From Sphingomonas sp. CCH9-E2 (lineage in GTDB: Bacteria > Pseudomonadota > Alphaproteobacteria > Sphingomonadales > Sphingomonadaceae), in contig NZ_LSJM01000318.1 in NCBI RefSeq assembly GCF_001557215.1, forward strand, positions 22,339 through 86,338: a stretch of DNA of 64,000 bases, written 5' to 3'. The position numbers and the translations under genes are program-made. Shown here piece by piece: positions 41,624 to 64,000 of the stretch. Positions within the stretch are counted from its first letter, which is position 1; each line of letters opens with the position of its first letter. The notes under the pieces are model-generated. The model was not told where the DNA came from. It saw nothing but the letters and a program-made list of their open reading frames with translations, and did not search any database.

Positions 41624-42351
41624 CGCCGGGTCACTCCGGCCCCGCCATCGATCGCCAGCACGGCTCCGGTGATCCAGGATGACGCCTCCGAAGCCAGAAA
41701 CAACGCCGCCTGAGACACATCCTCTGCCGTACCGAGCCGCCCCAGCGGATGGCGCAGCACATTGGCGGCAAGCGCAGCTTCGGGATCGGGCTGGCGGGCA
41801 AACGATGCGCGCAGCATCGGCGTATCGACCGATGCCGGCGCAATGCCATTCACGCGAATGCCATCGCCTGCGACCTCAAGCGCGAAGGTTTTGAGGAAGG
41901 TTTCCAGCCCCCCCTTCGAGGCGGCATAGGCGGCAAGCCCTGGCGCTCCCATTCGCGCGTTGATCGACGATACGAAGACAAAATTGCCGCGGCCCCGCGC
42001 CTGCATTGCGGGACCAAACGCCTGAACCAGCCGCAGCGCGCCACCGACGTTCACATCATACACTCGCAGAAATGCCTGAGGCGACGATGCGAGTGTCGCC
42101 GCAAACTCCGTGGTCGCAGCGGCGTGCACAACGATGGTCGGATCCCCAAGCTCTGCACGGATTCGCTGGGCCGCATCCGCGACGGCGTCATCGTTTGACA
42201 AATCGCAGGCAAGCGCGACATCGCCAATGGCCGGGGCGCCGAGGTCGAGCGCAGCCACCCGCGCCCCGGCTGCGGCGAAGTGCGCGCAGATCGCCTGTCC
42301 TATTCCCCCGGAGGCACCGGTCACGAGCGCGATCTCTCCATCAAGGCGCAT
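41620..42351 (-). CDS. SDR sugar dehydrogenase (galactose/fucose dehydrogenase-like)
   Basis: 243 residues from the ATG at 42351; two codons more are possible from 42357. TGASGGIGQAI, catalytic Ser in FVSSINARMG, YAASKGG (YxxxK), and NGIAPASVDTPM. It sits between an epimerase and a KDPGal aldolase, so oxidation of an aldose to its lactone is the likely step. Its start overlaps the epimerase stop. Confidence 0.8.
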   Translation of the reverse strand: MRLDGEIALVTGASGGIGQAICAHFAAAGARVAALDLGAPAIGDVALACDLSNDDAVADAAQRIRAELGDPTIVVHAAATTEFAATLASSPQAFLRVYDVNVGGALRLVQAFGPAMQARGRGNFVFVSSINARMGAPGLAAYAASKGGLETFLKTFALEVAGDGIRVNGIAPASVDTPMLRASFARQPDPEAALAANVLRHPLGRLGTAEDVSQAALFLASEASSWITGAVLAIDGGAGVTRR

Positions 42352-43432: not shown

Positions 43433-43441
43433 ATCGATCCT

Positions 43442-45609: not shown

Positions 45610-45664
45610 GCTACGATCCACGCGCCATCCTCTCACATCCGAGCGCGATCCGCCCGCAGGGCGC

Positions 45665-45693
45665 AAAATGTTTCGATTGAAGCAACAAGTCAA
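45665..45693 (-). promoter_or_regulatory. Candidate sigma-70-type promoter for the dgoK operon
   Basis: Reverse strand: TTGACT, 17-nt spacer, CATTTT. The AGCAACA sequence inside it (45681-45687) also occurs in the operator-like motifs near 46534 and 54739. It lies about 60-85 nt upstream of dgoK and next to the divergent IclR gene. Confidence 0.5.
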
Positions 45694-45785
45694 TTGCAAA
45701 TCCGTCGTGCCCCGCCACGATGTCGCTTGACGCGAACGTTCCATAGGGCATCACGGCTTGAGCACTATAGGACGATCCAAGCGCC

Positions 45786-46508
45786 ATGCGGCAAAAGCCC
45801 AATGCCCAGCCAAACCAAAGCCTGATCGACGGCATTGCCACGCTACAGGCTCTCGCCGTCTCGCCCGAACCGGTCGGCAACCGCGAACTTGCGCGCCAGC
45901 TCGGCTTCAACCCGACGCGGGTGAACCGCTTGCTTAAGACGCTGGCCTATCTCGGGATCGCGCGTCAGACTGCGAACCGCAAATATACGGCCGGGCCAGG
46001 CATGCATGTCCTAGCCGCACAGAGTTTGTTCGCGTCCAAGATCGTTCAGACCGCATTGCCCGCGCTGGAAAAGCTGCGTCGGTTCGGGTTGACGATCGCG
46101 CTCGGCGTCCTGTGGAACGATAGTGTCAGCTACCTCTTCCATGCTCCGCCGGGAATGGAGACGACGCAGGGACTGGGCCGCATCGGCCTGCTGCCGGCAA
46201 GCAGCAGCGGCATCGGCATGGCATTGCTCGCCGAGCAGGATGACCAGCATCTTGCCGAGTTGTTCGAAGGGGTCGAAATTCCCGACTTTCCGGGCGGCCT
46301 TCCCGATCTGATGGCAGCGATCGGTGACGTGCGCGCACAAGGTTATGCGCGAGTGCGCGTCGGCGAAAACCATGACCGCCACACCATCGCCCTTCCCGTG
46401 TCGCACCCCGCCTTCGCTGCCGTCGGACTGTCTGGCTGGATCCCCGAGGACAACACACAGACCATCGTCGACGCGCTGCGCGCGGCAGCGGCGGAAATCA
46501 GCGATTGA
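45786..46508 (+). CDS. IclR-family transcriptional regulator
   Basis: 240 residues. Winged-helix DNA-binding (ELARQLGFNPTRVNRLLKTL) and IclR effector domain (GLTIALGVLWNDSVSYLFHA; GIGMALLAEQ; GYARVRVGEN). Divergent from dgoK and ahead of the DHDPS gene on the same strand, so it probably represses both units until a sugar acid binds. The conserved IclR-family Cys in the effector pocket is not obvious. Confidence 0.85.
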   Translation: MRQKPNAQPNQSLIDGIATLQALAVSPEPVGNRELARQLGFNPTRVNRLLKTLAYLGIARQTANRKYTAGPGMHVLAAQSLFASKIVQTALPALEKLRRFGLTIALGVLWNDSVSYLFHAPPGMETTQGLGRIGLLPASSSGIGMALLAEQDDQHLAELFEGVEIPDFPGGLPDLMAAIGDVRAQGYARVRVGENHDRHTIALPVSHPAFAAVGLSGWIPEDNTQTIVDALRAAAAEISD

Positions 46509-46533
46509 GAAAATGATCCGCTATAAGCAACAC

Positions 46534-46551
46534 TAGTATTGCTAATTTAGC
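46534..46551. promoter_or_regulatory. Operator-like motif, copy 1
   Basis: TAGTATTGCTAATTTAGC, 66 nt upstream of the DHDPS-family start. The right half GCTAA-T-TTAGC is a perfect palindrome; overlapping AGCAACACTAGTATTGCT (46526-46543) is a near-palindrome. Matches copy 2 at 54739-54756 in 16 of 18 positions. Confidence 0.6.
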
Positions 46552-46616
46552 ACCGTTGTGATTGATGCCCTCCAGCAAGCGGCGTAGCCGTGCGTTTCCT
46601 TCTGGAGGGGATTTCC

Positions 46617-47540
46617 ATGTCTGACATCGCCGGCGCCTTCCCGGTGCTTCCCACGATCTTCGACGCCAATGGTGAAATCGACGAGGCCGGTTTCCGGCGC
46701 GTCGCGCTGTGGGCGATCGACTGCGGCGCCGATGGCGTGGTCTTCCCGGGCCTGGCCAGCGAATATGATCATCTGAGCCTGGCCGAGCGCACCGCGCTGA
46801 TCGCGATCCTTGGCGACGTCACGCGTGGACGCGTGCCCTTCATCGCTGGATGTGGCGGCCATAGCGACGAAGAGAGCGAGGCGCTGATCGCGGCAGCCGC
46901 GCACGCCGGTGCGGCGGCGGCAATGGTGGTCACGCCCGCCCGCAAGGGCGATGACATCGAGGCACTTGCAGCCTTCTACAACCGGCTCGCCGCAGCAGCG
47001 CCCGTGGCAATCATGCTGCAGAACGCGCCAAAGCCGATGGGTCTGGGCCTGACGCCACGTCAGGTGCTGGCGGTGGTCGAGCGCGCGCCCGGCATTCGCT
47101 ACGTCAAGGAGGAGAATGCCCCCTGCGGCCAGCGCATCACTGCGCTGCGCGAGGCCGGCGGCCCCGCGCTCGACGGGATCTTTGGCGGCGCTGGCGGCCG
47201 TTATATCACCGACGAGCTTGCACGGGGCGCCGATGGCACAATGCCGGCCGTCGAGATCGCCGACCTCCATGTCGCGCTGATCGCGGCACACCGCGCCGGC
47301 GACTGGGCCGAGGTCCGTCGCCTGTTCGAGCGGACATTGCCATTGCTCAACATGCAGGCAGTATTCCGCTGGCGGCTCACCAAGGAAGTGCTCAAGCGCC
47401 GCGGGCTGATTGAGGACGCCTATGTCCGCGCTCCCGGACCGATGCTCGATGCACATGACCTGCGCGAGCTTGATCAGCTGATGGCGGGCCTTGCCGACCT
47501 GATCGAAGCGCCCTCGCCGCAAATCGCCCGCGCGCTATAA
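46617..47540 (+). CDS. Dihydrodipicolinate synthase/N-acetylneuraminate lyase family aldolase
   Basis: 307 residues from the ATG at 46617 (GGAGGGG upstream). Class I aldolase barrel: FPGLASEYDHLSLAER, Schiff-base Lys in IRYVKEENAPCG, and FGGAGGRYITDEL. In a sugar operon such genes are 2-keto-3-deoxy-sugar-acid aldolases or dehydratases rather than lysine biosynthesis enzymes. It is followed 12 nt later by the dehydratase. Confidence 0.82.
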   Translation: MSDIAGAFPVLPTIFDANGEIDEAGFRRVALWAIDCGADGVVFPGLASEYDHLSLAERTALIAILGDVTRGRVPFIAGCGGHSDEESEALIAAAAHAGAAAAMVVTPARKGDDIEALAAFYNRLAAAAPVAIMLQNAPKPMGLGLTPRQVLAVVERAPGIRYVKEENAPCGQRITALREAGGPALDGIFGGAGGRYITDELARGADGTMPAVEIADLHVALIAAHRAGDWAEVRRLFERTLPLLNMQAVFRWRLTKEVLKRRGLIEDAYVRAPGPMLDAHDLRELDQLMAGLADLIEAPSPQIARAL

Positions 47541-47551
47541 GTAGCAGCACC

Positions 47552-48727
47552 ATGACCGACGCGATCGCACATATCGAGACCTTCGTCGTCACCATCCCGC
47601 GCGACATCCCTTATCTTGGGCCGTTGCGGCCGGGTGAAGAGGTCAATGAGCGCGGCTATTTCGTGCGCACGTCGAACCGGACCATCTATCCGGTCGAAGA
47701 CCGGTCGGTGCTGGTCAAGGTCACGACCCGCGACGGCGTGATCGGCTGGGGCGAAACCTATGGCCTGACTGCTCCGGGGGTGATCGGCGTGTTCGTCGAC
47801 GACCTCATCCTGCCGCTGATCCGTGGGCGCAGCCCGCACGATGTCGCCGCGATCTGGGACGATCTCTACGACATCCTGCGCGTTCGCGGTTATGGTGGCG
47901 GCTTCTGGCTGGACGCAGTAGCTGCGGTCGATATCGCGCTGTGGGACATCTGCGGCAAGTTGGCGGGCAAGCCCGTGCGCGACCTGCTGGGTGGTGCAAA
48001 GCGCAAGACGATCCCAGCCTATGTCTCTGGCCTCCCCCGTGCGACGATCCCCGAACGGGTCGAGCTGGCGCAAGCGTTCGTGGCCAAAGGCTATGACGCA
48101 ATCAAGTTCGCCGCCGCGGTCTCGACCCATGGGATCGAGGCGGAACTGAAGGCGTTGCGCGAGGCACTTGGCCCCGATGTACGGCTGATGATCGACTTCC
48201 ACTGGATGTTTGCGCCGGAGGCTGCAGTGCAGCTGATCCAACGGCTGGAACCTTATGGCCTGCACTTCGCAGAAGCGCCGGTGAAGCCCGAGGATATCGA
48301 TGGTCTCGCGCATGTCGCGCGGAGCGTCGCCACCCCGGTTGCGGCTGGTGAGGAATGGCGCAGCACCTACGAAGCGCTGCCCCGGCTCAAGGCCGGTGCG
48401 GTCGCCATCGTCCAGCCCGAAATGGGGCATACCGGCATCACCCAGTTCATGGCGATCGCCGCGCTCGCGGATCGCCACGAAGTGCCGACAATTCCCCACG
48501 CGACGATCGGCACCGGCATCTTCCAGGCCGCGAGCCTGCAGGCGTCGGCAGCAATCCGCGATCTCCCAATGCACGAGTATCAGCATTCGATCATGGATCG
48601 GAACGCGGCGCTGCTCGACGGAGAGCTGAAGGCGGAAGCCGGACAATATCTGCTGCCCGACGGTCCAGGGCTTGGCGTCGCGCCGGGGGCAGGTCTCTGG
48701 ACCCATGCAGTGAAGATTCAGGGATAG
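47552..48727 (+). CDS. Mandelate racemase/muconate lactonizing (enolase) superfamily sugar-acid dehydratase
   Basis: 391 residues. Metal ligands in LMIDFHWMF, FAEAPVKPED and AAGEEWRS; general-base Lys in YDAIKFAAA; His in IPHATIGTG. Members dehydrate galactonate, gluconate and related acids to 2-keto-3-deoxy acids, which would feed the kinase DgoK or the DHDPS-family aldolase. No lactonase gene is visible in the window, so one step between the dehydrogenase and this enzyme is missing here. Confidence 0.82.
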   Translation: MTDAIAHIETFVVTIPRDIPYLGPLRPGEEVNERGYFVRTSNRTIYPVEDRSVLVKVTTRDGVIGWGETYGLTAPGVIGVFVDDLILPLIRGRSPHDVAAIWDDLYDILRVRGYGGGFWLDAVAAVDIALWDICGKLAGKPVRDLLGGAKRKTIPAYVSGLPRATIPERVELAQAFVAKGYDAIKFAAAVSTHGIEAELKALREALGPDVRLMIDFHWMFAPEAAVQLIQRLEPYGLHFAEAPVKPEDIDGLAHVARSVATPVAAGEEWRSTYEALPRLKAGAVAIVQPEMGHTGITQFMAIAALADRHEVPTIPHATIGTGIFQAASLQASAAIRDLPMHEYQHSIMDRNAALLDGELKAEAGQYLLPDGPGLGVAPGAGLWTHAVKIQG

Positions 48728-51962: not shown

Positions 51963-54683
51963 TCAGAAACGCGCGCGCAAATTGGCGGTGAAGGTCTGGC
52001 CGTTCTCCAGGAAGGTCTGGGTCGCCTCCTCGAAGCTACTGTATTTGCGCACGGACGAGTTGAGCAGGTTCGAGCCCGAAAGGCTGAGCTTGATCTGCTT
52101 GGTGATGTCGAAATTCACCGATGCCGACAGCGCTTCGTATGGCCGGTAATAGACGCCGTCGCCGCTACCCCCGATCTTGTCGAGAAACTTGCCGCGCCAG
52201 CTATAGCCGACGCGCAACCCGACCGGCCCCTTCTCGTAATAGCCAACCAGATTGGCGCTGTGGCGCGACAGGCCTTCGATCGGCAAATCGGCCTGGGTGC
52301 GCAGGTCGGTGATACCGGAAGCGCTGTCGATGAAGGTGTAGGTCGCGTTGATGCCAAGGCCATCCAGCGGTCCCGGGAGGAATTTCAGCGGCTGCTTGAT
52401 CTGGAATTCGAAGCCCCTGATCGTCGCGCCCGCGCCATTGAACGTCCGGTTGATGCGATAGGGTGTGGCGGGGTCGGCATCATTCGGATCGGCATCGAGC
52501 CCCGGAAGCACTTCTTCGACCAGCCGGGTGAAGATGAAGCTCTCGACATCCTTGTAGAAGCCGGCAAGCGACACAAGCGAGTCCCGCGTCGGATACCATT
52601 CGATCGAGACGTCGAACTGGTTGACGCGGAATGGTTGAAGCGCCGGGTTGCCGCCCGATCCGCCACCCGCGCTGGTGATCGAGAAGGACGGCGACAGGTC
52701 GCGGGTGTTGGGTCGCGCCAGCACGCGCGCCGCGCCGAGGCGGAACAGCACCTTGCTGCCCAGTTCGAATCGCAACGCCGCGCTCGGCAACCAGTCGTCG
52801 TAGCTGATCCGGTCGTTACGCTCCTCGAAGCCGCCAGTACCGCCGCGAATACCATAGAAGCCGTTCGCCAGAACCCGCGTCTTCACATAGCGGACCCCGA
52901 CATTGCCGGTCATCGGAAGTCCCAACCAGTTAGCGCCAATGTTCGCCTGGACATAAGCCGAGTAGATCGGCTCCTGGAGATCGTAGCTTGAGGTAGGATC
53001 GTAGAGATAGGGTGTGCAGGTTGGCTGAAACACCTTGCACACGCCTTCGAGGTCACCGAACTCAGGAACTCCGAGCAGGAAGCTGGTCGGGAACGCCCCT
53101 TGGGCACTGCGCATGAAGTTCCCGAACATTACGGTTTCGTAATTGTCCGGATAGGATGTCACCGGGATCGCCGCTGCGCCCGAGGCTGCGTAGGTGCTTT
53201 GATTGCGGTAGGTCTCGCGGTTCGTCTTGATGTTGCTGTAGCGCAATCCCGCTTCGACGCTACGCAGCAACGGACCTTCAATTGCGAAGGTTGCATCGAG
53301 GCGGCCGTTCCACTCTTCAGATCGATAGACGAAGAGATTATCGAAACTGGTGCGATAGATGTAGAGCGAGGGATCGCTGAGATTGAGCGTCGCGGGCAGT
53401 ATCACCTGCGGCACGTCGCTGTTGCGGAAATCAAATGGTATCAATTGGGTCGTACGCGTGTCGGCACGCAAATAGGCTTGGCTGTAGTCCTGCGTCCCCA
53501 GCGTGTAGGACAGCTCACCGCGAAGCTCCAGCCGGTCGCCAGCCTGCCAACGCCCGCCGATCGCGCCGGTCCAGATATCGGTCGGCAGGGTCATCTTCTC
53601 GCCATTGCCCTGCACCGTGGCGCGGACCGTTCCGGCGATGAGATTTTCATTCTCGGTATAAACGGGGTTGGTATAGCTCGCCGCACTCGCCGCCAGCGGG
53701 ATCGAGATCCAGCGACGATAGCGATCGGTTTCAGCGTGCGCGTAGAGGATGTCGACATACATATCGAAATCCTTGGACGGCGCGAATGTCAGGCCGGTGG
53801 TGACCCCAAGCTTGCGCCGCTTCTCTTCCAGCCGCTGATACCGGATGTCGTTATAGTAGAAGATGTTGATCCCATCGCCATTGGGATCGCGGACTGCAGC
53901 ATTGCTGCTGAAGCTGTCCGGCGCTTCACGCCAGCCGTTGAAGCTGTCACTCGAATCCTGGACGATATTGAGTTCCTGATAGTTGAACCCGAGCGAGAAG
54001 CCGAACTTCCCATCGGCGAACGACTTCGCGATCAGGCCCGTCATGCGATAGGACAGGTCGTCGGCCTTGTCCTTGTACACGCCCTGCAGCGATCCCCCGA
54101 CATACCATGCGTCACCGCGCGGCGCGCGGCGCGTCTGAATGTTCACCGTGCCGCCCAGCGACCCTTCGATCATCGCCGCCGAGGGCAGCTTGGTCACATC
54201 CATCCGCGCGACCAGTTCGGAGGGGATGAGCGTCAGCACATTATAGGCGCCGTCATCCGGGCCATCCGGGCCGCGTCCATAGGGGCTGATCAATGTGCGG
54301 CCGTTGAACTCAAGCCGGTTCTGCCGCAACCCCCGCACCGAGATATCGCTCGCCTCGTCAATGCCACGGCGAACCTGGACCCCCGAGACGCGCTCAAGCG
54401 ATTCAGCGACATTTTGGTCGGGGAGCTTACCGATGTCCTCAGCCACGATTGAGTCGACGATCTGATCGCTGCTGCGCTTGATGTCGATCTCTTCGGCCTG
54501 GCTCGCGCGGATACCGCTGATGATGACTTCTTCAGGCTCGGTCTGATCTTGAGCAGACGGTGCAGGAGTCGGCGCGGGAGCCGGCAAAGAGGCTGGATTG
54601 TTTGTCTGGGCGAAACAGGGAGCCGCGTTCGCGGTCAGCGCGATAACTGCGGAAGCAGTCAGAAAATTACGTGAAAGCGCCAT
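51963..54683 (-). CDS. TonB-dependent receptor of the sugar-uptake type
   Basis: 906 residues from the ATG at 54683. Signal peptide (LTASAVIALTANAAPCFAQT), Pro-rich linker, TonB-box-like EEVIISGIRAS, plug starting DIGKLPDQNVAESLERVSGV, and a barrel ending in an aromatic strand (TFTANLRARF). This IQN/oligosaccharide receptor class is expanded in sphingomonads. The operator-like motif (54739-54756) lies 56 nt upstream, the same sequence as in front of the DHDPS gene. Confidence 0.88.
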   Translation of the reverse strand: MALSRNFLTASAVIALTANAAPCFAQTNNPASLPAPAPTPAPSAQDQTEPEEVIISGIRASQAEEIDIKRSSDQIVDSIVAEDIGKLPDQNVAESLERVSGVQVRRGIDEASDISVRGLRQNRLEFNGRTLISPYGRGPDGPDDGAYNVLTLIPSELVARMDVTKLPSAAMIEGSLGGTVNIQTRRAPRGDAWYVGGSLQGVYKDKADDLSYRMTGLIAKSFADGKFGFSLGFNYQELNIVQDSSDSFNGWREAPDSFSSNAAVRDPNGDGINIFYYNDIRYQRLEEKRRKLGVTTGLTFAPSKDFDMYVDILYAHAETDRYRRWISIPLAASAASYTNPVYTENENLIAGTVRATVQGNGEKMTLPTDIWTGAIGGRWQAGDRLELRGELSYTLGTQDYSQAYLRADTRTTQLIPFDFRNSDVPQVILPATLNLSDPSLYIYRTSFDNLFVYRSEEWNGRLDATFAIEGPLLRSVEAGLRYSNIKTNRETYRNQSTYAASGAAAIPVTSYPDNYETVMFGNFMRSAQGAFPTSFLLGVPEFGDLEGVCKVFQPTCTPYLYDPTSSYDLQEPIYSAYVQANIGANWLGLPMTGNVGVRYVKTRVLANGFYGIRGGTGGFEERNDRISYDDWLPSAALRFELGSKVLFRLGAARVLARPNTRDLSPSFSITSAGGGSGGNPALQPFRVNQFDVSIEWYPTRDSLVSLAGFYKDVESFIFTRLVEEVLPGLDADPNDADPATPYRINRTFNGAGATIRGFEFQIKQPLKFLPGPLDGLGINATYTFIDSASGITDLRTQADLPIEGLSRHSANLVGYYEKGPVGLRVGYSWRGKFLDKIGGSGDGVYYRPYEALSASVNFDITKQIKLSLSGSNLLNSSVRKYSSFEEATQTFLENGQTFTANLRARF

Positions 54684-54738
54684 TTCATCTCCCCTGACTC
54701 GTCCTGACCGCGTTCCGGCCATCGATCGATGAACAGGA

Positions 54739-54756
54739 TAGTGTTGCTATTTTAGC
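54739..54756. promoter_or_regulatory. Operator-like motif, copy 2
   Basis: TAGTGTTGCTATTTTAGC on the + strand, 56 nt before the receptor start. 16 of 18 positions match copy 1 (46534). Includes TGTTGCT, reverse of the AGCAACA seen in the dgoK promoter. Confidence 0.6.
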
Positions 54757-54934
54757 TATATGTCAATTGGCTAATCGGCAGCCGTTGGATCGCTAAGCCG
54801 ATGCATCACGTGCACTCGGCAAACGCGATCTCGAAGCTGGAACCCGACGCCCCGCACCCCGGCGCGGTGACCGCAGCAATCAGCCCGCGCTGTGCGCCAC
54901 CCTTCGCTGCGCCCTCCCCCCGGATCGAGCGGAC

Positions 54935-55495
54935 CACGCGAAGAACAAAGGCACTGCGGACCCTGGCGGCTTCGCAGAAGTCCGCCAGCGCATGCTCATT
55001 AAAAGTCGCTTTCCGCTTCCGAGCAGCGCCCCTCCCGCGTCACGCGATCGTCAACTGCAAAGGCTGAGAAGCAGCAAGCGACTCGGCGACGCGCAAGCGG
55101 CATAGAGGGCGGTCACGCAACGCGTGCGACGCCCTGAGACTTCACCCGTCTAGAGGCAAACCTACGCCAGCGCTCGTATTTGCACGCTGGCACCGCACTG
55201 CACCCTCCCGACATCAGAAAGGGTTTGTTCAGAGGCGAGGATTTCCGCCCAAATCACCTCCGGGGGCACCAGTCAGATGCACGCAATGCGAGGATATTCG
55301 ATGCAGACCGAACCCCCCGACCGCATTCTCCGTGTCAACACCGTCCTCGCCCGTACCGGGCTCAGCCGCTCCACGAATTACCGGAGCACGGAGAATGGAC
55401 GTTCCCGGGGACCGTCCAGATCAGCACGTGCTGCGTTGGATGGCGCGAGCCTGCGACCAATGCCTGGCCGCGCAGTCCAATGTTCTGCCGTACTG
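54935..55495 (+). repeat. Direct repeat copy 2 (alpA module, decayed)
   Basis: Collinear with 37215-37794 in the same orientation, with more divergence upstream and one frameshift in alpA. It marks the right boundary of the catabolic block and is followed by the lower-GC RiPP island. Confidence 0.6.
55301..55495 (+). pseudogene. Frameshifted AlpA-family regulator
   Basis: The ATG at 55301 opens MQTEPPDRILRVNTVLARTG then LSRSTNYRSTENG, nearly identical to the intact copy at 37591. A single missing base after AATGG (about 55399) shifts the frame; the homologous end (VGWREPATNAWPRSPMF) follows in the next frame. A dead paralogue. Confidence 0.75.
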
Positions 55496-55853
55496 CAGAT
55501 CGAGGGCAGCTGCTCACCTTCCGCGCAACATCGAGTGCTGACGTCGAGAGTAGGATAGCTGACCACATGTCCATCAGGACTCAGACACGCCTCCGCGATA
55601 AGCCTGACGCTGCGTTCTGCCCGGAGGCGCTATGCTGACACTCGCGATCCCGCTGTTCGCGAGCGCGCCACACTCCGCTGGGTCGGATGCGCATGACTAA
55701 CACCGCGATCAGAAGACGGGGACGCGCCACCGCCACCGCAAGAACTTGTCGATTTCCATGGTCCGTTTTGGACATAAATTGCGTTTCTAGAGCGCGGCCT
55801 GACATCTACGCTTCCAAAGCGGATGCGTTTGGGGCTCCTCGGGGAAATTGGGC
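55496..55853. other. Intergenic stretch ahead of the RiPP operon
   Basis: No credible gene. AT content rises towards the radical SAM start. A TTGTCG...TTGGACATAAATTG segment (about 55745-55783) could hold the operon promoter but is not a clear match. Confidence 0.4.
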
Positions 55854-56924
55854 ATGACAGATATCCATGAGCTCGACAGTGTGTCGACGCTCACTGATCG
55901 CCAGATCGCTTCGACGCTAACTCGACGATTTCAGCAGCTTATCATTCTTCCAACGGAGAAGTGCAATTTCAGATGCACCTACTGTTATGAAGATTTCAAG
56001 ATCGGCCAGATGTCAAGCGAGATCCAGTCATCGCTAGAAATGCTCATGTCCCGCCGGATTCCTGAGCTTGATGAAATGTCGATTAACTGGTTTGGCGGGG
56101 AGCCACTCGCCGCGAAGTCGGTCGTTCTGCGCCTCTCGGCGCATGCCAATAGGTTATGCGATGATCATGGCGTGAGACTTGCCGGCGGTCTCACGACGAA
56201 TGCTTATAGACTTCATTTCGACATCTTCGAAGAGCTCGTCTCCTATAAGCAGAATTTTTTCCAGATCACTCTCGACGGTTTTGGCGAAGTTCATGACGCG
56301 GTACGCAAACTTGCCAATGGCAAGGGGTCCTTTCAAAAGATTTGGGACAACCTCGCCCAAACCAAGAGGTCCGACAAGCAGTTTCGCATTCTGATTCGCA
56401 TTCATGTCCGTCGCGAAAATATCGATTCCCTCGAACTGTTGATGGCGGAGCTTGGCAAGACGTTCGGAGGCGATCCGCGCTATGAACTGGATTTCGAGCA
56501 TTTGCGAAACCTTGGCGGGGAAGGTGGCCTGACGGTTACCAGTCCAGTGTCATTGAGCGAGATGCCCGCCATCGAGGCTCGCCTCCGACAAGTGTTTCGC
56601 AACCATTCTCGATCCGGCGCTAACGCGGGCATTTCGCAAACGCTTCCAAGCATGAGCCAGCTTGCAGAAAAGCAGAACGTGGCCGGCCTGTCAGAGCCCT
56701 ATATTTGCTATGCAGCTAAAGCCAACTCGCTGCTGATCCGTGCGGACGGCCGCATTGGGAAGTGCACCGTCGCACTGGACGATGATCGCAACACGATTGG
56801 GCGCGTAAATACGGACGGAACGATCGCGATCGACAGCCAGAGACTGATGCCCTGGGTAAGAGGCATTTCTAGTGGGTCAGTCCAAGAGCTGCAGTGCCCA
56901 CTCGTTGGCCTGCCCCAATATTAA
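55854..56924 (+). CDS. Radical SAM/SPASM peptide-modifying enzyme (RiPP maturase)
   Basis: 356 residues as read, from the ATG at 55854 (an upstream TTG at 55848 is less likely). Radical SAM cluster C-x3-C-x2-C in EKCNFRCTYCYED (about residue 40), GGEP (NWFGGEPLA), then a C-terminal SPASM-type region with Cys in EPYICYAAKANSL and RIGKCTVALDDD and a last QCPLVG. The reading stops at TAA 56922-56924. Dropping one base near 56904 continues the protein as CPLLACPNINAILRGERL to a TGA at 56950-56952 that overlaps the precursor start (ATGA). The true C-terminus is therefore probably in that frame. It likely installs thioether or C-C cross-links in the two downstream precursors. Confidence 0.85.
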   Translation: MTDIHELDSVSTLTDRQIASTLTRRFQQLIILPTEKCNFRCTYCYEDFKIGQMSSEIQSSLEMLMSRRIPELDEMSINWFGGEPLAAKSVVLRLSAHANRLCDDHGVRLAGGLTTNAYRLHFDIFEELVSYKQNFFQITLDGFGEVHDAVRKLANGKGSFQKIWDNLAQTKRSDKQFRILIRIHVRRENIDSLELLMAELGKTFGGDPRYELDFEHLRNLGGEGGLTVTSPVSLSEMPAIEARLRQVFRNHSRSGANAGISQTLPSMSQLAEKQNVAGLSEPYICYAAKANSLLIRADGRIGKCTVALDDDRNTIGRVNTDGTIAIDSQRLMPWVRGISSGSVQELQCPLVGLPQY

Positions 56925-56948
56925 CGCAATTCTCCGTGGAGAACGATT

Positions 56949-57209
56949 ATGACAGATAATGACAACATCCTGTCAATCGACAAGTTCGGACGAGTTATAT
57001 TGTCCGATGAAGTGCTAGACATCATGTGCAATCAATCTGATGTGGTAATAGCTGGCGGAAATACCGGATTCAATGCACTTGGCTGCACCAATAATGCCAA
57101 TTGCGGGGGTATGGTCAATCATAATACCTGCACCAATGCGACAGGAGCTTGTGGCGGATCATTAAACTCGAGTAATTGTCTTGATCGACCCAAAGCAACC
57201 AAGCCATAA
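56949..57209 (+). CDS. Double-glycine-leader RiPP precursor 1, Cys/Asn-rich core
   Basis: 86 residues, ATG at 56949 with GGAG eight nt ahead. Leader 1-37 has FGRVILSDEVLD and ends VVIAGG; core 38-86. Core Cys at 46, 52, 61, 68 and 77, with one Cys (27) in the leader. Two units of C-[ST]-N-x(2-4)-C-x-G (CTNNANCGG, CTNATGACGG). Asn is unusually frequent. No hydrophobic bacteriocin-like helix. Immediately downstream of the maturase and upstream of its exporter. Confidence 0.85.
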   Translation: MTDNDNILSIDKFGRVILSDEVLDIMCNQSDVVIAGGNTGFNALGCTNNANCGGMVNHNTCTNATGACGGSLNSSNCLDRPKATKP

Positions 57210-57228
57210 ATTAGCGGGGGATAAAAAA

Positions 57229-57483
57229 ATGTCCGTTTCCAACAAGTGGGCGAGCTTTAGCCTGGATCAGCATGGCCGAGTGGTTTTGAGCGATCAGGAA
57301 CTCGATCAGCTGGTGGATTGCCCGGCCAGCGTCATCGCCGGCGGGGCAAATCAAGGATGCAGTGGTGCAAATGCAGGCTGCACAAACAGCAGCTGCGAGG
57401 GTAGCTGGAACGGTAGCTGTTCCAACACTAGCTGCGCGGGAACGACAAACGGCATACGGTGCGAAAACAAGGTTCGACGTTGA
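57229..57483 (+). CDS. Double-glycine-leader RiPP precursor 2, Cys/Asn-rich core
   Basis: 84 residues from the ATG at 57229 (GCGGGGG upstream). The leader parallels precursor 1: HGRVVLSDQELD and SVIAGG ending at residue 39. Core 40-84 with Cys at 44, 51, 56, 64, 69, 78 (Cys31 in the leader). Units CTNSSCEGS and CSNTSCAGT repeat the same C-[ST]-N-x2-C-x-G pattern. The 3' end is 25 nt before the exporter start. Confidence 0.85.
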   Translation: MSVSNKWASFSLDQHGRVVLSDQELDQLVDCPASVIAGGANQGCSGANAGCTNSSCEGSWNGSCSNTSCAGTTNGIRCENKVRR

Positions 57484-57508
57484 TCGCCAGCGCGCGGCAA
57501 TCTTGGTG

Positions 57509-59635
57509 ATGCGATTCCCAAACTTCTCCCTTGCGTATCGAAAGCTGCTTTCGTCGCGCCCGACCATCGAACTTCAGTCCGAGGCCGCCGATTGCGGCTA
57601 CGTCTGCATCTCCGCAGTCTTCGCACTCGCCGGCGAGGTCCGCCGCGTCTCAGCGATCAAGGAGACAGGTGGCACCACGTCGCGCGGGCTTACTCTTAAA
57701 CAGATACGGGATGTAAGCCGCCGCTGCGGCCTCGCCGCCGAAGCTATCGCCTATTCGCCAGACCGCCTAGCCTCGCTCAACTTCCCTTTGATTTTGCTGT
57801 TGTCCAGAGGGCACTATGTCGTGGCCGCACGTTGCGTCGCTGGCGCGCTGGAGATCTATGATCCGGGAATGGGTTGGTATTGGCTACCCGCTCAAAAACT
57901 CCGCCGACGCCTCACAAATTATGCGATTGAGTTCAATTTTCCGCCAGCTCGCAAGTCGCGCCAGGACTCGGCACGCGTTCAGCCCGTCTCCCACTATCCG
58001 TTCATGCTATCCGCGTTGCTGCGGCGGCCGGACGGTAGACGAGTGGTTGCAATCGTGGCTGCTGGGCAGGCGCTCGCGCTTGCGATCCCCTTGATATCCA
58101 TGCTCGCTGTCAATCGGAGCACAGACAATCACGCGCTTTCAGCGTTGGGCGCTGTCGGCATCCTATTTCTTGCGTTGTCTCTCACTAACGTTTTGGTAGG
58201 GCTGGCGGGCGAACTCAGTGCGGTCCGCTTGAAGCGCTCGACTTATGTCGATGCGAGCCGCCTAGCATTTGATCGACTGAGCGAGAAGTCGGCTAGTTGG
58301 TTTATCCGACACGCGCCGGATAAAATCAAAAACCTCATCGACTCCTATTATGTTCAGTTAGATCTCAGCCTCGACATGCTCCGGTCTTCCGCCGGGATTG
58401 CTCTCGGGCTCATTCTTGGCGCCACCATTCTGGTTTTCGTGTCGCCTTGGCTGGCGGTGCCAGGCCTCCTGGCGCTGGGCCTAACCTCGACCATCGACGT
58501 GATCGTAAACCGACATCAGCGCTCGCATTTTGCCAACTCTCTAGAGGCCGCGCAGCGCAAGCAGCATTTCGTGCTCGACGTCCTTTGCCAGATGCCTGAA
58601 CTTATCCGCACCGGTGTCGGAGCTCGGGCTCGAGCCCGCTTCGCATCGGTCGTCAGGACCGCATCGACGGCAGAAGCCAGCCTGAACGCGCTTCAGGGGT
58701 GGCGTACCGCTTTACTCGCACTCGTCAGGTCGGGCGAGACCCTGATTTTCGTTTCGATTTCAGCCCTGTTCTGGTCCCGCGGCGACTATTCACTGGGCGC
58801 TTTTGTGGCCCTTGGCGCCTACAAGGATCTTATGGCGCAAAATCTGAATGCGCTTCTTCAGCTTCATCTGCGCAAGCAATCGATGAATGTCCACCGACTA
58901 CAGGCGAACCCGCTACTCGAGTCCTCCGGCGAGTCGCATGAGCAACCAACGCCCGTCACCGCTGGACGCGTCGATGTTTCCGACACGGCGTATCGGTATG
59001 GGTCATTGGACCCGATCGTATTCGAGGGTTGCTCGCTGCACGTATCCCCTGGCGAATTCGTGGCTATTCGCGGGCCGTCCGGAGCTGGTAAATCCACTTT
59101 CGCGCGCCTGCTGATCGGTGCCGCTCAACCCTCGACAGGTGTGGTGCTGATCGATGGTCAGCCATCGGCGCTCGGTCGGATGGGCGTGGCGGCTGTTCTG
59201 CAAACCGATCGGCTCATCGCCGCCGATATCATCAGCAACATTCTCTACTTCCGTGATCAACTCGACCTCGCCGATGCGATTGAGGCGCTCAAGTTGGTCG
59301 AACTGCACGATTTTGTGATGTCCCTGTCGATGCGATGGAAGACCTTCGTCTCTGATACGGGGGACGGCCTTTCCGGGGGTCAGCGGCAGCGCTTGCTGCT
59401 CGCTCGTGCTTTGGTCGACCGACCAAAACTGCTCGTTCTCGACGAGGCTACTTCGAGCTTGGACGTGGAGGTTGAGAGGCGAATCTTCGCTCGCCTGCGC
59501 GATAAGGGCATTTCACTGATCGTAATCGCCCATCGCCCTGAGATTTGGGCGATGGCTGATCGCGTCTACGATTTTTCTCCCAACGGGATCGTATCTGTCG
59601 AATCGCCTCCACTGATGCAGGTTCGCAGCGGTTAG
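57509..59635 (+). CDS. C39-peptidase ABC exporter (PCAT) for the RiPP
   Basis: 708 residues from the ATG at 57509; a longer frame runs back into precursor 2 and is not credible. Residues 1-150: peptidase C39 with Cys in EAADCGYVC, His in GHYVVAAR, Asp in IYDPGMGW. Then a membrane domain (about 160-440) and an ATPase: GPSGAGKST (Walker A), LSGGQRQR, LLVLDEATSSLD, AHRPEIW. It should cut after the GG of both leaders and export the cores. No membrane-fusion (HlyD-like) gene accompanies it, which is unusual for a Gram-negative system. Confidence 0.9.
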   Translation: MRFPNFSLAYRKLLSSRPTIELQSEAADCGYVCISAVFALAGEVRRVSAIKETGGTTSRGLTLKQIRDVSRRCGLAAEAIAYSPDRLASLNFPLILLLSRGHYVVAARCVAGALEIYDPGMGWYWLPAQKLRRRLTNYAIEFNFPPARKSRQDSARVQPVSHYPFMLSALLRRPDGRRVVAIVAAGQALALAIPLISMLAVNRSTDNHALSALGAVGILFLALSLTNVLVGLAGELSAVRLKRSTYVDASRLAFDRLSEKSASWFIRHAPDKIKNLIDSYYVQLDLSLDMLRSSAGIALGLILGATILVFVSPWLAVPGLLALGLTSTIDVIVNRHQRSHFANSLEAAQRKQHFVLDVLCQMPELIRTGVGARARARFASVVRTASTAEASLNALQGWRTALLALVRSGETLIFVSISALFWSRGDYSLGAFVALGAYKDLMAQNLNALLQLHLRKQSMNVHRLQANPLLESSGESHEQPTPVTAGRVDVSDTAYRYGSLDPIVFEGCSLHVSPGEFVAIRGPSGAGKSTFARLLIGAAQPSTGVVLIDGQPSALGRMGVAAVLQTDRLIAADIISNILYFRDQLDLADAIEALKLVELHDFVMSLSMRWKTFVSDTGDGLSGGQRQRLLLARALVDRPKLLVLDEATSSLDVEVERRIFARLRDKGISLIVIAHRPEIWAMADRVYDFSPNGIVSVESPPLMQVRSG

Positions 59636-59825
59636 AAGAAAAAGTTGGCGGATTAGAAAACTATTGAACCGGGCTTTTCCTTAGCGGGCAATTGCGGCTT
59701 TTAGGGTTGTTAATTCACAATCGCCCACCCGGAGTAGAAGGACAATGAACCAAGCTGCAATCATTTGAAGGGATCATCGTGCATTCGGCGTCGGAGATTA
59801 GCGAGTTCGAAGGGCATGACCTAGT

Positions 59826-61883
59826 ATGATTACCCGTCCGGGATATGCCATCGCGATGCTGGCGCTATCGCTTCCGGGGCAGGTCCTTGCACAGGATCTG
59901 GCCCAGCCAGCTGCAGGGGGAGATTCACAGGATGACATCCTCGTCATTGCCGACGCGGATCGCACCCAGATTGATCGCAAAGCCTACAGGATCGTCGACA
60001 GTCCGCTGGCGCAGACGCTTAGCGCGGGAGATGTTTTGCGTCACGTGCCGTTAGTTCGAGTGACGCCCGAAGGGCAGATCAGCCTCGCTGGTGTTCCCGG
60101 CGTCCGTGTGCTGATCGACGGAAAGGATCATCCCGACATCAACTCATATATTCGCGCGCTGCCGACCGCTCGTGTCGAACGCGTAGAGGTCCTGACCAAT
60201 CCATCCGGAGAGTTCGGAGCGGATGGGAGCACGGGGATCATCAATATCGTCCTGAAGAAGCGCTTTGCGGACGGACTGAGCGGTGCAACAACGGCAACGG
60301 TTGACCGGTTTGGCGGGGTCGAGTTTCGCGTCGGCCCCGTATGGTCGAACAACAAATGGACGCTCACCGGCCTTGTCTCAGTGAGTGATTTGGTCGCGCC
60401 ACTCTACCAGATTAGAAGCTTGCACCCTGCGAACGCACCCGCTCAATTGCTCGAAGAGCGAAACGGGAACAATTTTTCGAGGTCCGTGACAGGAAGCGGA
60501 TCGGTGGCGCGCCGCTTAGAGGGTGAGGCGAGCCTTCAGCTGACATTGTTTGGCACGTCTTCGGACGGGAAGATCGAGCAGGATAATCGCTTTCCTCTCG
60601 GACCAAATAATGCTGTGACTACAACTGGTATGTCGCTTGGTGCTATTGACTTAAGCGCATACAGCGCGAGCCTCAGTTATCAGGATTCCTCGGGTCCGCT
60701 CGGCGGCAGCCTCTCTGCTAGTCTGACCTACGGTGTAACGGATCTGAACTCAGCGCTGGCAACAAAATCGGGCGGCTCTGTAGTCGTTGCAAGCAGCACC
60801 GGCTTTCACCAGTCGCGGCTGAATTTTGACCTATCTTCGAAGTTCAAATTGAACCAAGACATCCTCTCGATCGGAGTTCAGGTTGAGGACGGCGACACTA
60901 CAGGGTCGAGCGAATTCACCTATTTAGGCGTGGCAGTTCCGACAAGCTTTGCTTCGAGCACGAAATCATTTGGAAATGTTTCTAAGTATGACGCTTTTGC
61001 GACTTACCAGTTCAAGCTCCTGGACCTGAGTATCCTGCCCAGTGCGAGGATCGAAGCACGCGACTATGATTTTGACACAGGCGCCACCGGTTCGCGTTCG
61101 AGCGCCTATTTTCGCATCGCGCCGTCGCTCCATTTGGAGCTACCGGCAACAAGACGGCTTGCCGCGAAATTCAGCTACTCGCGCGCCTACACCTATCCCG
61201 CAATCTCGGACCTCGATCCTGCCCTTCAATTGTCGGGACCGCTGTCTGGACAGCGGGGCAACCCGCAGCTCCGACCTCAAACGACACAAACTTTTGAGAT
61301 TGGGGGCGATTGGTCCCTTGCCCCTCATCAGGTGAGCATTCTGCTATCGCGGCGTGTAACCGAAGATGTTTGGCTCACTCAACAAACTGTCGAGAACGGG
61401 GGCATCGTAGTTTCGCAGCAGCGAAATTTTGGGCAGCGCCATTCTAGCTCCGTCACGCTGGAGGCCAGCGGAACCTTGCTCGGGCCACTGAAGTACGAGC
61501 TGAGCGGATCGTGCTCCCGCATCCTATATCGTGAAGAGGGCGCGGCTGAGTTGAGTGTGTCGGAGTGTCTGGCCTCCGGTGCAATCAAATACCAGGAAAG
61601 GGACTTCAATTCCCCGCACGGCGACATGTTCGACTTCCGCATCGACTGGACCGGTGCCAGCAATGATCCATTGATGCGTGTCGCAGCCTATTGGTCCGCA
61701 GATTTAACGTGGGCACATCGGTTTACGCGGCGGATCTCGTCATCTCTCCAGATCAGCGATATCTTCGATACCAGCAATCGGCGGGTTAGCTATGAGACTG
61801 TCGGAGGGCGTATCGACCAGTTTGGTGGCAGCGATGCGCCACGGGTGAAGTTTTCGCTCACTTACCAGCTCGGTTCTCCATAA
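59826..61883 (+). CDS. TonB-receptor-like outer membrane protein of the RiPP locus
   Basis: 685 residues with a signal peptide (AIAMLALSLPGQVLAQ). A short plug (about 50-150: LAQTLSAGDVLRHVPLVRVT, VLIDGKDHPDINSYIRALPT, VERVEVLTNPSGEFGADGST) precedes a beta-barrel ending in KFSLTYQL. A DDILVI stretch may be the TonB box. It is smaller than typical uptake receptors. It could be the outer-membrane route for the product or its uptake or immunity receptor; sequence does not decide. Low GC like the rest of the operon, separated from the exporter by 190 nt with a possible 7-codon ORF at 59744. Confidence 0.78.
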   Translation: MITRPGYAIAMLALSLPGQVLAQDLAQPAAGGDSQDDILVIADADRTQIDRKAYRIVDSPLAQTLSAGDVLRHVPLVRVTPEGQISLAGVPGVRVLIDGKDHPDINSYIRALPTARVERVEVLTNPSGEFGADGSTGIINIVLKKRFADGLSGATTATVDRFGGVEFRVGPVWSNNKWTLTGLVSVSDLVAPLYQIRSLHPANAPAQLLEERNGNNFSRSVTGSGSVARRLEGEASLQLTLFGTSSDGKIEQDNRFPLGPNNAVTTTGMSLGAIDLSAYSASLSYQDSSGPLGGSLSASLTYGVTDLNSALATKSGGSVVVASSTGFHQSRLNFDLSSKFKLNQDILSIGVQVEDGDTTGSSEFTYLGVAVPTSFASSTKSFGNVSKYDAFATYQFKLLDLSILPSARIEARDYDFDTGATGSRSSAYFRIAPSLHLELPATRRLAAKFSYSRAYTYPAISDLDPALQLSGPLSGQRGNPQLRPQTTQTFEIGGDWSLAPHQVSILLSRRVTEDVWLTQQTVENGGIVVSQQRNFGQRHSSSVTLEASGTLLGPLKYELSGSCSRILYREEGAAELSVSECLASGAIKYQERDFNSPHGDMFDFRIDWTGASNDPLMRVAAYWSADLTWAHRFTRRISSSLQISDIFDTSNRRVSYETVGGRIDQFGGSDAPRVKFSLTYQLGSP

Positions 61884-62104
61884 GGTTGAGCACTTCGAAG
61901 CGATCCAGACGCGGCGAAATTGTATTGGTGGCGTGTCGCCCGACTTATCGGGACTCGTCTCGTAGGGGTCACCGCGAATCTGATGCCGTGAAGGCAGCTC
62001 TCTCGGTGGTGGCGCACGAGACTTTAATCCAGCGGAGGGCAACTACAATCGGTCACGAACCCGAAACCACCAGGCAAAATCCGACTCAAGTTCAGCTATA
62101 CTGA

Positions 62105-63322
62105 CTACGCTCGCTTACGAAACTTACCCTTGATCACAGCGCCGCCGACGCGGAGTTGATCGAGATAATCCGACCACCACTGCGCCATCCGCACCCGCTC
62201 CGCCCAATGAGCGCCACGATGGTAAGCAGCGCGCACCTTGTCCTTCTGGCCATGAGCCAGCGCGCGCTCGATGGCGTCGGGATGCCAGAGCCCGGATTCA
62301 TTGAGTAGCGTACTGGCCATCGCTCGGAACCCGTGACTGGTCATTTCGTCGTGCTCGAACCCCAGGCGGCGCAGGGCAACGTTCAAAGTGTTGTCCGAAA
62401 GTGGCCGCTTGGTTGTGTGAAGCGCCGGAAACAGAAACTCGCTTTCCCGGGCGAGCGATCGGAGGTCCTGAAGGAGGTATAGCACCTGTCGAGAAAGCGG
62501 CACCGCGTGTGCCTGTTTCATCTTCATTCGCTCAGCCGGCACGCGCCAGACCTTCTCCGCGAAATCGATCTCGCTCCACTTCGCTTGCCTCAATTCACCG
62601 GGCCGCAGAAACACGTGAGGTGCGATCCTCAACGCGTGAAGGGTCTCGGGTCGGCCTTGATAGCCATCAATCGCGCGAAGCAGTTCGCCAACCTTCTTTG
62701 GCTCGACGATTGCCGCATGGTGTTTGACGCGCGGGACAGTGAGCGCGCCGCGCAAAATGTCCGCCGGATTGCGCTCGGTGCGCAGCGTAGCGAAACCATA
62801 GCGGAAGACGCGTCCTGCGAACGACCGTAGCCTGAGCGCGGTTTCATGATGCCCGCGACGCTCGACACGCTTCAGCACATCGAGAAGCTCATGAGGCGTT
62901 ATCGAGGCAATTGGGCGCTTGGCGATGCCGGCCAAGAGTTCGAGGAACCAGCGAGCCTTTTTCAGGGTCGCCGGTGACTTTCCCTCCCGCTCCATCTTTT
63001 GGATATATTCCTCGGCCACGAGCCTGAAGGTCGTTTGGGCCGCCAGCTCGGCCTTCAGGCGACGCTGGCGCTTTTCCTCAACCGGGTCGATGCCATCGTC
63101 CAGCTCGGCCTTGGCCTCATCCCGCTTTCTGCGAGCTTGGGGCAGGGAAACGTCGGGGAAACTTCCCAGCGAAAGCTTCCGCTCGATGCCGCAACATCGG
63201 TAGCGGAAGCGCCAGAGCAACGCCCCCGATGGCTGCACCAGCAAGTACAAACCATCGGCATCGGCAACTTTATATGGACGCTCAGCCGATTTGAGTGATC
63301 GAATCTGCATAACCGTAAGCAT
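62105..63322 (-). CDS. int: P4-type tyrosine integrase
   Basis: 405 residues from the ATG at 63322; an upstream in-frame start gives non-family sequence. N-terminal DUF4102 (YKVADADGLYLLVQPSGALL, LGSFPDVSLPQARRKRDEAK), core-binding domain, then a catalytic domain with Arg in LRPGELRQAKW, H-x-x-R in SHGFRAMAST, and Tyr in AAYHRGAH. Such integrases insert into tRNA 3' ends; a tRNA 3' fragment lies 150 bp upstream. It probably mobilised the RiPP island to its left. Confidence 0.88.
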   Translation of the reverse strand: MLTVMQIRSLKSAERPYKVADADGLYLLVQPSGALLWRFRYRCCGIERKLSLGSFPDVSLPQARRKRDEAKAELDDGIDPVEEKRQRRLKAELAAQTTFRLVAEEYIQKMEREGKSPATLKKARWFLELLAGIAKRPIASITPHELLDVLKRVERRGHHETALRLRSFAGRVFRYGFATLRTERNPADILRGALTVPRVKHHAAIVEPKKVGELLRAIDGYQGRPETLHALRIAPHVFLRPGELRQAKWSEIDFAEKVWRVPAERMKMKQAHAVPLSRQVLYLLQDLRSLARESEFLFPALHTTKRPLSDNTLNVALRRLGFEHDEMTSHGFRAMASTLLNESGLWHPDAIERALAHGQKDKVRAAYHRGAHWAERVRMAQWWSDYLDQLRVGGAVIKGKFRKRA

Positions 63323-63472
63323 GGGGCCACGCCTCTTGCATCGTTCGTGGCCCCATGATTCGTGGCCCCTTTTGAGTGGGCCACGGCGGAACATAATGAG
63401 ATTTCATGGGACCGCCAAAAGCCATTTTACCGCAGATTTCTGCGGTTTTCTAGCCTTGTTCACGGTATGGAC

Positions 63473-63500
63473 TGGTGCCGCTTACAGGACTCGAACCTGT
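63473..63500 (-). tRNA. 3' tRNA fragment (T-arm, acceptor and CCA), attachment-site scar
   Basis: Reverse strand: T-stem ACAGG, loop TTCGAGT, CCTGT, then AAGCGGC, A, CCA. The first 48 or so bases of a tRNA are absent upstream, and no GCCGCTT 5' strand is seen. The acceptor sequence resembles tRNA-Thr of related bacteria. This is the att copy left by integration, not a functional tRNA. Confidence 0.6.
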
Positions 63501-63609
63501 GCTCCAATGAGTCGCCCTCCGCTGCAGTGATCGGACCGTCGCTTCGATCCGGGAGCCGATGAAATCCGCTCGCATCAAATGCGTCTCAAACCTCGAATAA
63601 AGTCTTTGT

Positions 63610-64000
63610 CTATCCGGTCGGCAGCACGCCGTGCGCTTCGGACACGATGTCGAACGCGATGCTGATACGCTCTTCGTCCAGCCCGCTTGGGATCGTCCAA
63701 TGCTCGTAGTGGGAGGGCGCCATCAACAGCATGCCTTCCTGAGGAACGTAGTGCGCGGACCGGATGACTTCCGTACGGAGCGATGCGGGCTGGCCGAACG
63801 CCAGTGCACCGGGCCCGTTGCCGGTGGAGACGGCTTTAGGCACGCGAACATAATAGACCCCGCTGAGCCACCCCAGCGGGTGAATATGCCCAGCTTCATA
63901 GGCAGCGTTTCGCTGAAGCAGACCCCATGGCCGAATGCGTGCTGCGGCGGGGCGTAATGCCGGCCACGGGTCAAAACCGGGCCGATCGACGGGCCGATAT
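63610..64000 (-). CDS. Putative 2OG-Fe(II) oxygenase (N-terminus beyond the window)
   Basis: The reverse frame is open from the window end to a TAG at 63610-63612, about 129 residues. It contains EAGHIHPLGWLSGVYYVRVP (the H-x-HP..LSGVYYV motif), then APSHYEHWTIPSGLDEERIS with IAFDIVSEAH. That is the PF13759-like putative 2OG-Fe(II) oxygenase family, often with TPR repeats N-terminal. Orientation and position beyond the att fragment suggest chromosomal backbone. Confidence 0.75.
   Translation of the reverse strand, partial: YRPVDRPGFDPWPALRPAAARIRPWGLLQRNAAYEAGHIHPLGWLSGVYYVRVPKAVSTGNGPGALAFGQPASLRTEVIRSAHYVPQEGMLLMAPSHYEHWTIPSGLDEERISIAFDIVSEAHGVLPTG

Follow-up and report, generated by a model that had tools for sequence, protein, structure and literature searches.

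What does the five-gene cluster at positions 55854–61883 of this 64,000-nucleotide (nt) stretch of Sphingomonas sp. CCH9-E2 DNA (the whole stretch is called the window below) make, and does its product belong to a known class of ribosomally synthesized and post-translationally modified peptides (RiPPs)? Our analysis suggests that the radical S-adenosylmethionine (SAM) enzyme of the cluster probably installs several small Asn–Cys thioether rings, giving a ranthipeptide-like product that repeats the NxxC motif, and that the exporter cuts it after a Gly–Gly (GG) site. This proposal rests on the gene content, the protein domains, the conserved cysteines, a recurring gene set and an Asn–Cys spacing code that holds in the close family and is enriched in distant relatives.

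The five open reading frames (ORFs) lie in a row on the + strand, in the order radical SAM enzyme, precursor 1, precursor 2, C39 peptidase–ATP-binding cassette (ABC) exporter and outer-membrane receptor, separated by gaps of 24, 19, 25 and 190 nt. The guanine–cytosine (GC) content of 2-kb windows is 0.55–0.58 within the cluster versus 0.59–0.69 away from it. The enzyme (55854..56924) is a predicted peptide maturase of 356 amino acids (aa) with a CxxxCxxC motif and a twitch-like C terminus, and scores 53.7 bits against Radical_SAM (Pfam PF04055, cut-off 29.5). Precursor 1 (56949..57209, 86 aa) and precursor 2 (57229..57483, 84 aa) have leaders of 37 and 39 aa, each ending in IAGG, a double-glycine site assigned by reading the sequence and matched by the C39 peptidase encoded downstream; the predicted cores that follow comprise 49 aa with 5 Cys and 10 Asn (57060..57206) and 45 aa with 6 Cys and 7 Asn (57346..57480). 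The exporter, 708 aa from the ATG at 57509 (57509..59635), has the features of a peptidase-containing ABC transporter: Peptidase_C39 (PF03412, 61.6 bits, cut-off 22) and ABC_tran (PF00005, 86.9 bits, cut-off 25) are both above their cut-offs, and both precursors carry GG leaders. The last gene (59826..61883) encodes a 685-aa outer-membrane protein of the TonB-dependent receptor type, with Plug (PF07715, 25.0 bits, cut-off 23.9) and the barrel models OMP_b-brl_3 (PF14905, 100.9 bits, cut-off 27) and TonB_dep_Rec_b-barrel (PF00593, 54.4 bits, cut-off 27); these six domains are the ones above the Pfam gathering score in the three large proteins. An earlier note, made from the letters of the DNA, had described a radical SAM RiPP cluster with this gene order on one strand, lower GC than its surroundings, two Cys/Asn-rich double-glycine precursors, a C39–ABC exporter and an outer-membrane receptor, and each of these elements is borne out by the ORFs, gaps, GC windows and domains, as it is by the precursor comparisons below.

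That the two short precursor ORFs are real genes is indicated by the joint recurrence of radical SAM enzyme, precursor and exporter elsewhere and by homologous precursors at other loci. Among 82 loci that encode related enzymes (numbered from L001), the order enzyme–precursor–exporter is found again in L003, L004, L005, L006 and L033, and L010 has exporter, enzyme and precursor; a C39 domain is encoded at 40 of the 82, some of which are short. Precursor 2 has a homologue that is 93% identical (P0121), ten precursors from other loci are 31–41% identical to it, and the precursor leaders share the consensus IxLDxxGRVxLxDxxL. A precursor profile search found 30 proteins, all of them lacking both a functional name and any Pfam domain.

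The cores of both precursors contain the N-x-x-C motif, and their cysteines follow a simple rule. All six core Cys of precursor 2 have an Asn upstream, five at −3 and one at −4, and four of the five in precursor 1 have one at −3 or −4, the fifth having an Asn at −5. This makes 10 of 11 Cys with Asn at −3 or −4, a count reached in none of 20,000 shuffles. We then assembled 42 close precursor sequences from loci beside related enzymes and from the profile search, and removed 9 near-copies to leave 33, including the two of the window. Across this set, 168 of 182 core Cys have an Asn at one of these two offsets, against a mean of 47 and a maximum of 66 in shuffles, and each of the 168 can be assigned an Asn partner of its own in a one-to-one pairing. 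Counted by offset, Asn occupies −3 for 94 of 182 Cys and −4 for 80 of 181.

Does the code extend beyond the close family? A distant set was drawn by rule from small ORFs at most 1.6 kb from the enzyme, on the same strand and with a GG or GA site, with L001–L006 and L010 excluded. This non-redundant set holds 55 ORFs at 36 loci, certainly including some that are not genes, and 129 Cys lie after the site. Asn stands at −3 of 52 of the 129 Cys (12.2 expected, z = 12.7) and at −4 of 21 (11.7 expected), and Asn at −3 is the top enrichment across all residues and offsets. Next come other Cys 5 and 6 residues away (z = 4.1 and 7.4), and several residues lie near z = 4, including Asp at −3 (17 versus 7.2 expected, z = 4.0), Pro at −6 and Thr at +3. 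In two control sets, both small, from the opposite strand (14 ORFs) and from distal positions (8 ORFs), Asn at −3 falls outside the ten strongest enrichments. The same spacing occurs in the minimal cores of the distant relatives L014, L017, L020 and L032, and N-x2/3-C cores lie beside the enzymes of Pseudoalteromonas, Nostoc-group cyanobacteria and a planctomycete, among others; at least the phyla Pseudomonadota, Cyanobacteriota and Planctomycetota have them.

Several loci are arranged in ways worth recording in their own right. Around one exporter of Massilia (L006:9157–12931) stand five distinct precursors, a natural library of N-x2/3-C cores, and in L019:7718–10784 seven small ORFs with 5–8 Cys and differing cores accompany one enzyme, and in several of these ORFs Asn or Asp precedes a Cys by three residues. 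The enzyme and precursor are tandemly duplicated in one betaproteobacterial genome, with diverged cores (L007:5786–10913). Two IMG/VR contigs of 11,308 and 66,297 bases (L001, L002) carry the same enzyme with an N-x-x-C precursor, possibly as prophage cargo or because of mis-binning, and in the metagenome-derived L008 and L016 the enzyme ORF is split in two pieces, by assembly error or decay.

A number of observations weigh against reading the code as a map of cross-links. In the close family, no Asn stands at −3 or −4 of 14 of the 182 core Cys; nine of these have one at −5, which in one case is already the partner of another Cys, and in L003 an exceptional Cys has Asp at −3. The enrichment of Asn at +2 (84 of 176) and +5 (85 of 176) is also roughly equal to that at −3 and −4. 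A cruder count is uninformative: any small ORF with at least two motifs is found at 42 of 82 loci both near the enzyme and far from it, the far part being 2.5 times longer; with at least three motifs, the counts are 20 loci near and 14 far. L013 and L038 have N-x-C instead, and we recognised no precursor at L009 and several distant loci. Conservation of Asn may moreover have other causes, such as turns or recognition, and the bond is a prediction. The enrichment at +2 and +5 is explained by the alternation of the repeat, and the upstream direction of pairing is set by the ends of the cores together with the distant ORFs. At the first core Cys, an upstream Asn at −3 or −4 is present in all 33 precursors and a downstream Asn in 26; at the last, Asn is at −3 or −4 in 28 of 33 and at +2 or +5 in 5 of 33. 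Pairing of each Cys with an Asn downstream was accordingly set aside, the +2/+5 partner being absent for the last Cys in 28 of 33 precursors.

The same counts bear on whether the residues are cross-linked to each other at all. Asn and Cys could be recognition or folding elements while the enzyme makes another change, such as a C–C link, epimerization or desaturation, or while the Cys remain free or are oxidised to disulfides. The reactions of radical SAM enzymes are diverse, and we know of no reported product of this enzyme family; against this stand the fixed spacing of one Asn from each of 168 of 182 Cys and the recurrence of this spacing in the minimal cores of the four distant relatives named above, and we regard such an outcome as improbable. 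For a cyclophane in particular, the aromatic residues it requires are sparse: the 1,682 core residues of the 33 precursors include 8 Trp, 19 Phe and 25 Tyr, with one Phe in core 1 and one Trp in core 2. A triceptide-type product, which has repeated aromatic-x-x motifs, was rejected for the same scarcity.

What kind of enzyme would form the predicted Asn–Cys rings? We compared 83 enzymes, that of the window and those of the 82 loci; the set includes two partial ORFs and two identical sequences. The three cysteines of CxxxCxxC are kept in 81, 81 and 81 of them, and three C-terminal cysteines (Cys 285, 304 and 348 in the window) in 82, 82 and 80; no further C-terminal column has Cys in more than 25% of the 83. 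A SPASM domain has seven C-terminal Cys that bind two auxiliary clusters, and a twitch domain follows the pattern C-x9–15-G-x4-C with a later Cys. In the 356-aa numbering, the window enzyme reads C285-x13-G299-x4-C304 and then C348, which fits the twitch pattern. The earlier note had assigned a SPASM domain; since only three C-terminal Cys are conserved, that part does not stand, and the C terminus is twitch-like, with its cluster occupancy a prediction from these residues. Twitch is a truncated SPASM domain with one auxiliary cluster (PMC11002830).

The enzyme is also compact at its N terminus, where 36 residues precede CxxxCxxC, and up to 65 do so in 78 of the 81 enzymes with an intact motif (median 36), L022, L027 and L070 being longer by their leftmost start. 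A RiPP recognition element (RRE) takes about 80–90 residues and so does not fit there. The short C terminus first suggested a truncated or frameshifted enzyme, an idea that we dropped: nearly all of 22 aligned relatives extend to the final conserved Cys-Pro region and stop no more than about 60 residues past it, several as early as the window enzyme, and P0069 ends before it.

Among the curated families that match it best, none claims this enzyme. In the subfamily model search that the earlier note had called for, it falls below the cut-off for all of the best 25 of 73 NCBIfam matches: TIGR04463 scores 138 bits against a cut-off of 525, Clo7bot 120 against 600, CefB 112 against 600, PapB (NF047865) 99.7 against 340 and SCIFF (TIGR03974) 59.7 against 425. 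All 23 members of one enzyme alignment (A1), the window included, match the TIGR04463, Clo7bot, CefB, geopeptide and PapB models at E ≤ 1e-20. Of the curated models, TIGR04463 (rSAM_vs_C_rich), CefB and Clo7bot score highest for the radical SAM domain, and their names imply Cys-rich or other small peptide partners; their models span 438–444 positions, 68–86 of them before the matched part, whereas the window matches end by residue 218. A protein search yielded 3,399 relatives at E ≤ 1e-3 (7,999 candidates scored), not all of them necessarily alike in function; the names among the 120 listed are ‘uncharacterized protein’, ‘radical SAM protein’ or ‘radical protein’, and one relative, P0001, is 93% identical to the window enzyme. 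Sphingomonas suaedae, a culturable relative, encodes both an enzyme (P0119) and a precursor (P0143) of this kind. In a 385-genome sample from the class of L005's Caulobacter genome, a match at E ≤ 1e-60 appears in that genome alone among the rows shown (at most five candidates scored per genome), suggesting that close relatives are rare in that class. In a FastTree phylogeny the window enzyme groups with alpha- and betaproteobacterial enzymes in a set of 15 rows that has support and contains 7 of the 10 rows labelled as multi-motif; counting this label on the tree is uninformative, with 8 changes versus a shuffled mean of 9.6, and unlabelled rows include members.

Comparison with solved structures points to thioether chemistry. 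The nearest by profile is 5wgg (5.8e-19), which with 5why we take to be CteB (PMC8326336), a thioether-forming maturase; SkfB gives 0.0046 and SuiB 0.15. A Foldseek search with the AlphaFold2 model also ranks CteB first and anSME second, with TM-scores of about 0.5. The mean pLDDT of the model is 76.5, with low confidence in the loop of the radical SAM cluster and moderate to low confidence towards the C terminus, and we therefore draw no conclusion on cluster geometry.

The predicted type of cross-link has a precedent in streptococci, where NxxcB joins the sulfur of Cys23 to Cβ of Asn20 in NxxcA, forming one Asn–Cys β-thioether (PMC8326336, PMC13361665); this Asn–Cys case is treated separately from freyrasin (PMC11002830). 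The NxxC radical SAM RiPPs (NxxcA/NxxcB, from Streptococcus orisratti and S. porci) share with the window the N-x-x-C core motif, a radical SAM maturase and a Cys downstream of its Asn acceptor. They differ in that one Asn–Cys bridge is reported, as against up to 11 N-x2/3/4-C pairs across the two precursors here, and in that the auxiliary cluster of NxxcB is placed in a SPASM domain (PMC8326336), whereas the window enzyme is twitch-like. The likeness to NxxcB, a further point to be set against our proposal, is one of motif and published description rather than of compared enzyme sequences. The context described for the streptococcal genes is Rgg/SHP; in the window, the Pfam matches of the five-gene cluster include no such regulator and seven flanking small ORFs gave a sub-threshold AlpA match only, no Rgg model having been sought by name, and a C39 exporter and a TonB-dependent receptor are present. 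Enzyme architecture, repeated multi-ring code, hosts and gene context do not match the streptococcal precedent. The earlier note recognised no named class with this core. That agrees with the best 25 of 73 NCBIfam matches of the enzyme, all below cut-off, and with 12 precursors (A2) that have no NCBIfam match apart from one chance hit (E 0.014); it is incomplete as to the motif, because N-x2/3-C, which the core obeys, is also that of the NxxC peptides of streptococci.

Other thioether RiPPs are near in some respects. In freyrasin the acceptor is an Asp downstream of the Cys (C-x3-D), whereas the predicted acceptor in the window is an Asn upstream of it. Freyrasin has six Cys–Asp S–Cβ rings (PMC11002830), and its maturase PapB makes several small thioether rings, as predicted for the window peptides. 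The ranthipeptide group (SCIFF/CteB, thermocellin) includes the nearest solved relative, CteB; membership in the ranthipeptide maturase families is not indicated, the PapB and SCIFF models being far below cut-off.

Could the sulfur be joined to Cα instead, as in sactipeptides? SkfB works by Cα chemistry. Like the window enzyme, SkfB has a twitch-type domain (PMC8326336), and a sactipeptide-type product, in which each Cys sulfur would be linked to Cα of Asn or another residue in a hairpin or in small sactionine rings, would involve the same enzyme class and an identical mass change. SkfB also has an N-terminal RRE (PMC8326336), however, for which the window enzyme has no room, and the enzyme profile is far nearer CteB than SkfB, as the E values above indicate. 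In the close family almost every acceptor position holds Asn, an argument for an activated Cβ, and the spacing of three or four residues matches or nearly matches the NxxcA ring (PMC8326336). We therefore judge Cα linkage unlikely.

Repeated Asn–Cys Cβ-thioethers, with the spacing and order of NxxcA, are for that reason our best prediction, and they suggest the following scheme, in which the bond, the carbon joined, the order of steps and the role of the receptor are all deductions. The leader, through its IxLDxxGRVxLxDxxL consensus, would be recognised by the radical SAM–twitch enzyme without a fused RRE. The enzyme would abstract a hydrogen from the Asn side chain, probably at Cβ, and bond this carbon to the Cys sulfur located three or four residues further towards the C terminus. 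With three C-terminal cluster-binding Cys, one iron of the auxiliary cluster would be free and could meanwhile hold the substrate Cys, as has been discussed for SkfB and CteB (PMC8326336). The reaction would repeat along the core, one ring per N-x2/3(/4)-C unit, so that peptide 1 would carry at most five rings and peptide 2 at most six, each formed with a loss of 2 Da. The C39 domain would then cut after IAGG and the peptide would be exported, after which the TonB-dependent receptor would most likely re-import the peptide or its complex, or protect the producer.

The receptor may therefore serve re-uptake, immunity or metal acquisition, and the last of these deserves separate weighing. In methanobactin systems, a receptor re-imports the metal complex. 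Were the Cys/Asn-rich peptides exported as a metallophore whose metal complex is taken back, a function compatible with Asn–Cys thioether chemistry, one would point to the related receptors near the enzyme in L003 (in the window order), L004 and L005 (both divergent), all Caulobacterales by title, and to the lack of any HlyD-like adaptor detected in the window and these three loci in a low-sensitivity phmmer search (three queries) that finds such adaptors at 14 of 82 loci. Yet the receptor homologue occurs at just these 3 of 82 loci, alphaproteobacteria have many such receptors, and no metal-related gene was seen in the cluster by Pfam matches or among the flanking small ORFs; we consider metal handling a rather remote prospect.

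How new, then, is the product? The cluster is a radical SAM RiPP cluster with one precedent for its predicted bond; its enzyme architecture, its many predicted rings, its hosts and its gene context differ from that precedent. In the open-licence literature, judged by titles and abstract openings and with subscription journals outside this scope, we recognised no description of the enzyme family, and section 4 of a survey of such radical SAM enzymes (PMC9062424) does not mention the Asn–Cys code. The family appears to be unnamed and widespread, with one single-ring streptococcal example as its nearest known chemistry. We tentatively raise the possibility, on balance still a conjecture, of an undescribed RiPP class with strings of Asn–Cys β-thioether rings, made by compact radical SAM–twitch maturases that mostly lack room for an RRE and share the N-x2/3-C code; some alphaproteobacteria would have gained a dedicated TonB-dependent receptor, with the peptide exported and taken back like a metallophore or signal. 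If this is so, the spacing code predicts ring positions in many uncharacterised peptides of several phyla, and the single-ring streptococcal curiosity is the known tip of a broad class. Compact enzymes without a fused leader-binding domain, seemingly acting many times per substrate, would be attractive for mechanistic work and peptide stapling, and in the receptor-bearing alphaproteobacterial clusters the role of the peptide can be addressed directly by gene deletion.

The setting of the cluster suggests mobility. To its right lies a tyrosine integrase outside the pathway (62105..63394, − strand; Pfam PF13356, PF22022, PF00589) and, beside it, a stretch that by eye resembles a tRNA 3′ end, with T-arm, acceptor strand and CCA (63473..63504, − strand), a possible attachment site. 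ARAGORN and Rfam report no tRNA there, Rfam has no match in 54700–64000, and scanning the window for a repeat of this tRNA-like end, at up to three mismatches, gave none. To the left of the enzyme, a small ORF (55277..55558, + strand) partially matches the AlpA-type prophage-regulator model over residues 15–41 (PF05930, 19.6 bits, cut-off 21). From the integrase, the tRNA-like end and the sub-cut-off AlpA match, we conclude that the cluster likely sits on an integrated island. A plasmid collection gave no match to the cluster, precursor 2 or the left flank as queries, and the enzyme protein matched 102 of its records, all below 60% identity. Further left, a TIGR01782-type TonB-dependent receptor is encoded at 51963–54722 on the − strand (622.6 bits, cut-off 310). 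At 42344–48724, unrelated to the cluster, lie genes for sugar-acid catabolism: an IclR regulator, an enolase-superfamily enzyme, a major facilitator superfamily (MFS) transporter, a 2-keto-3-deoxy-galactonokinase and a DUF4432 protein.

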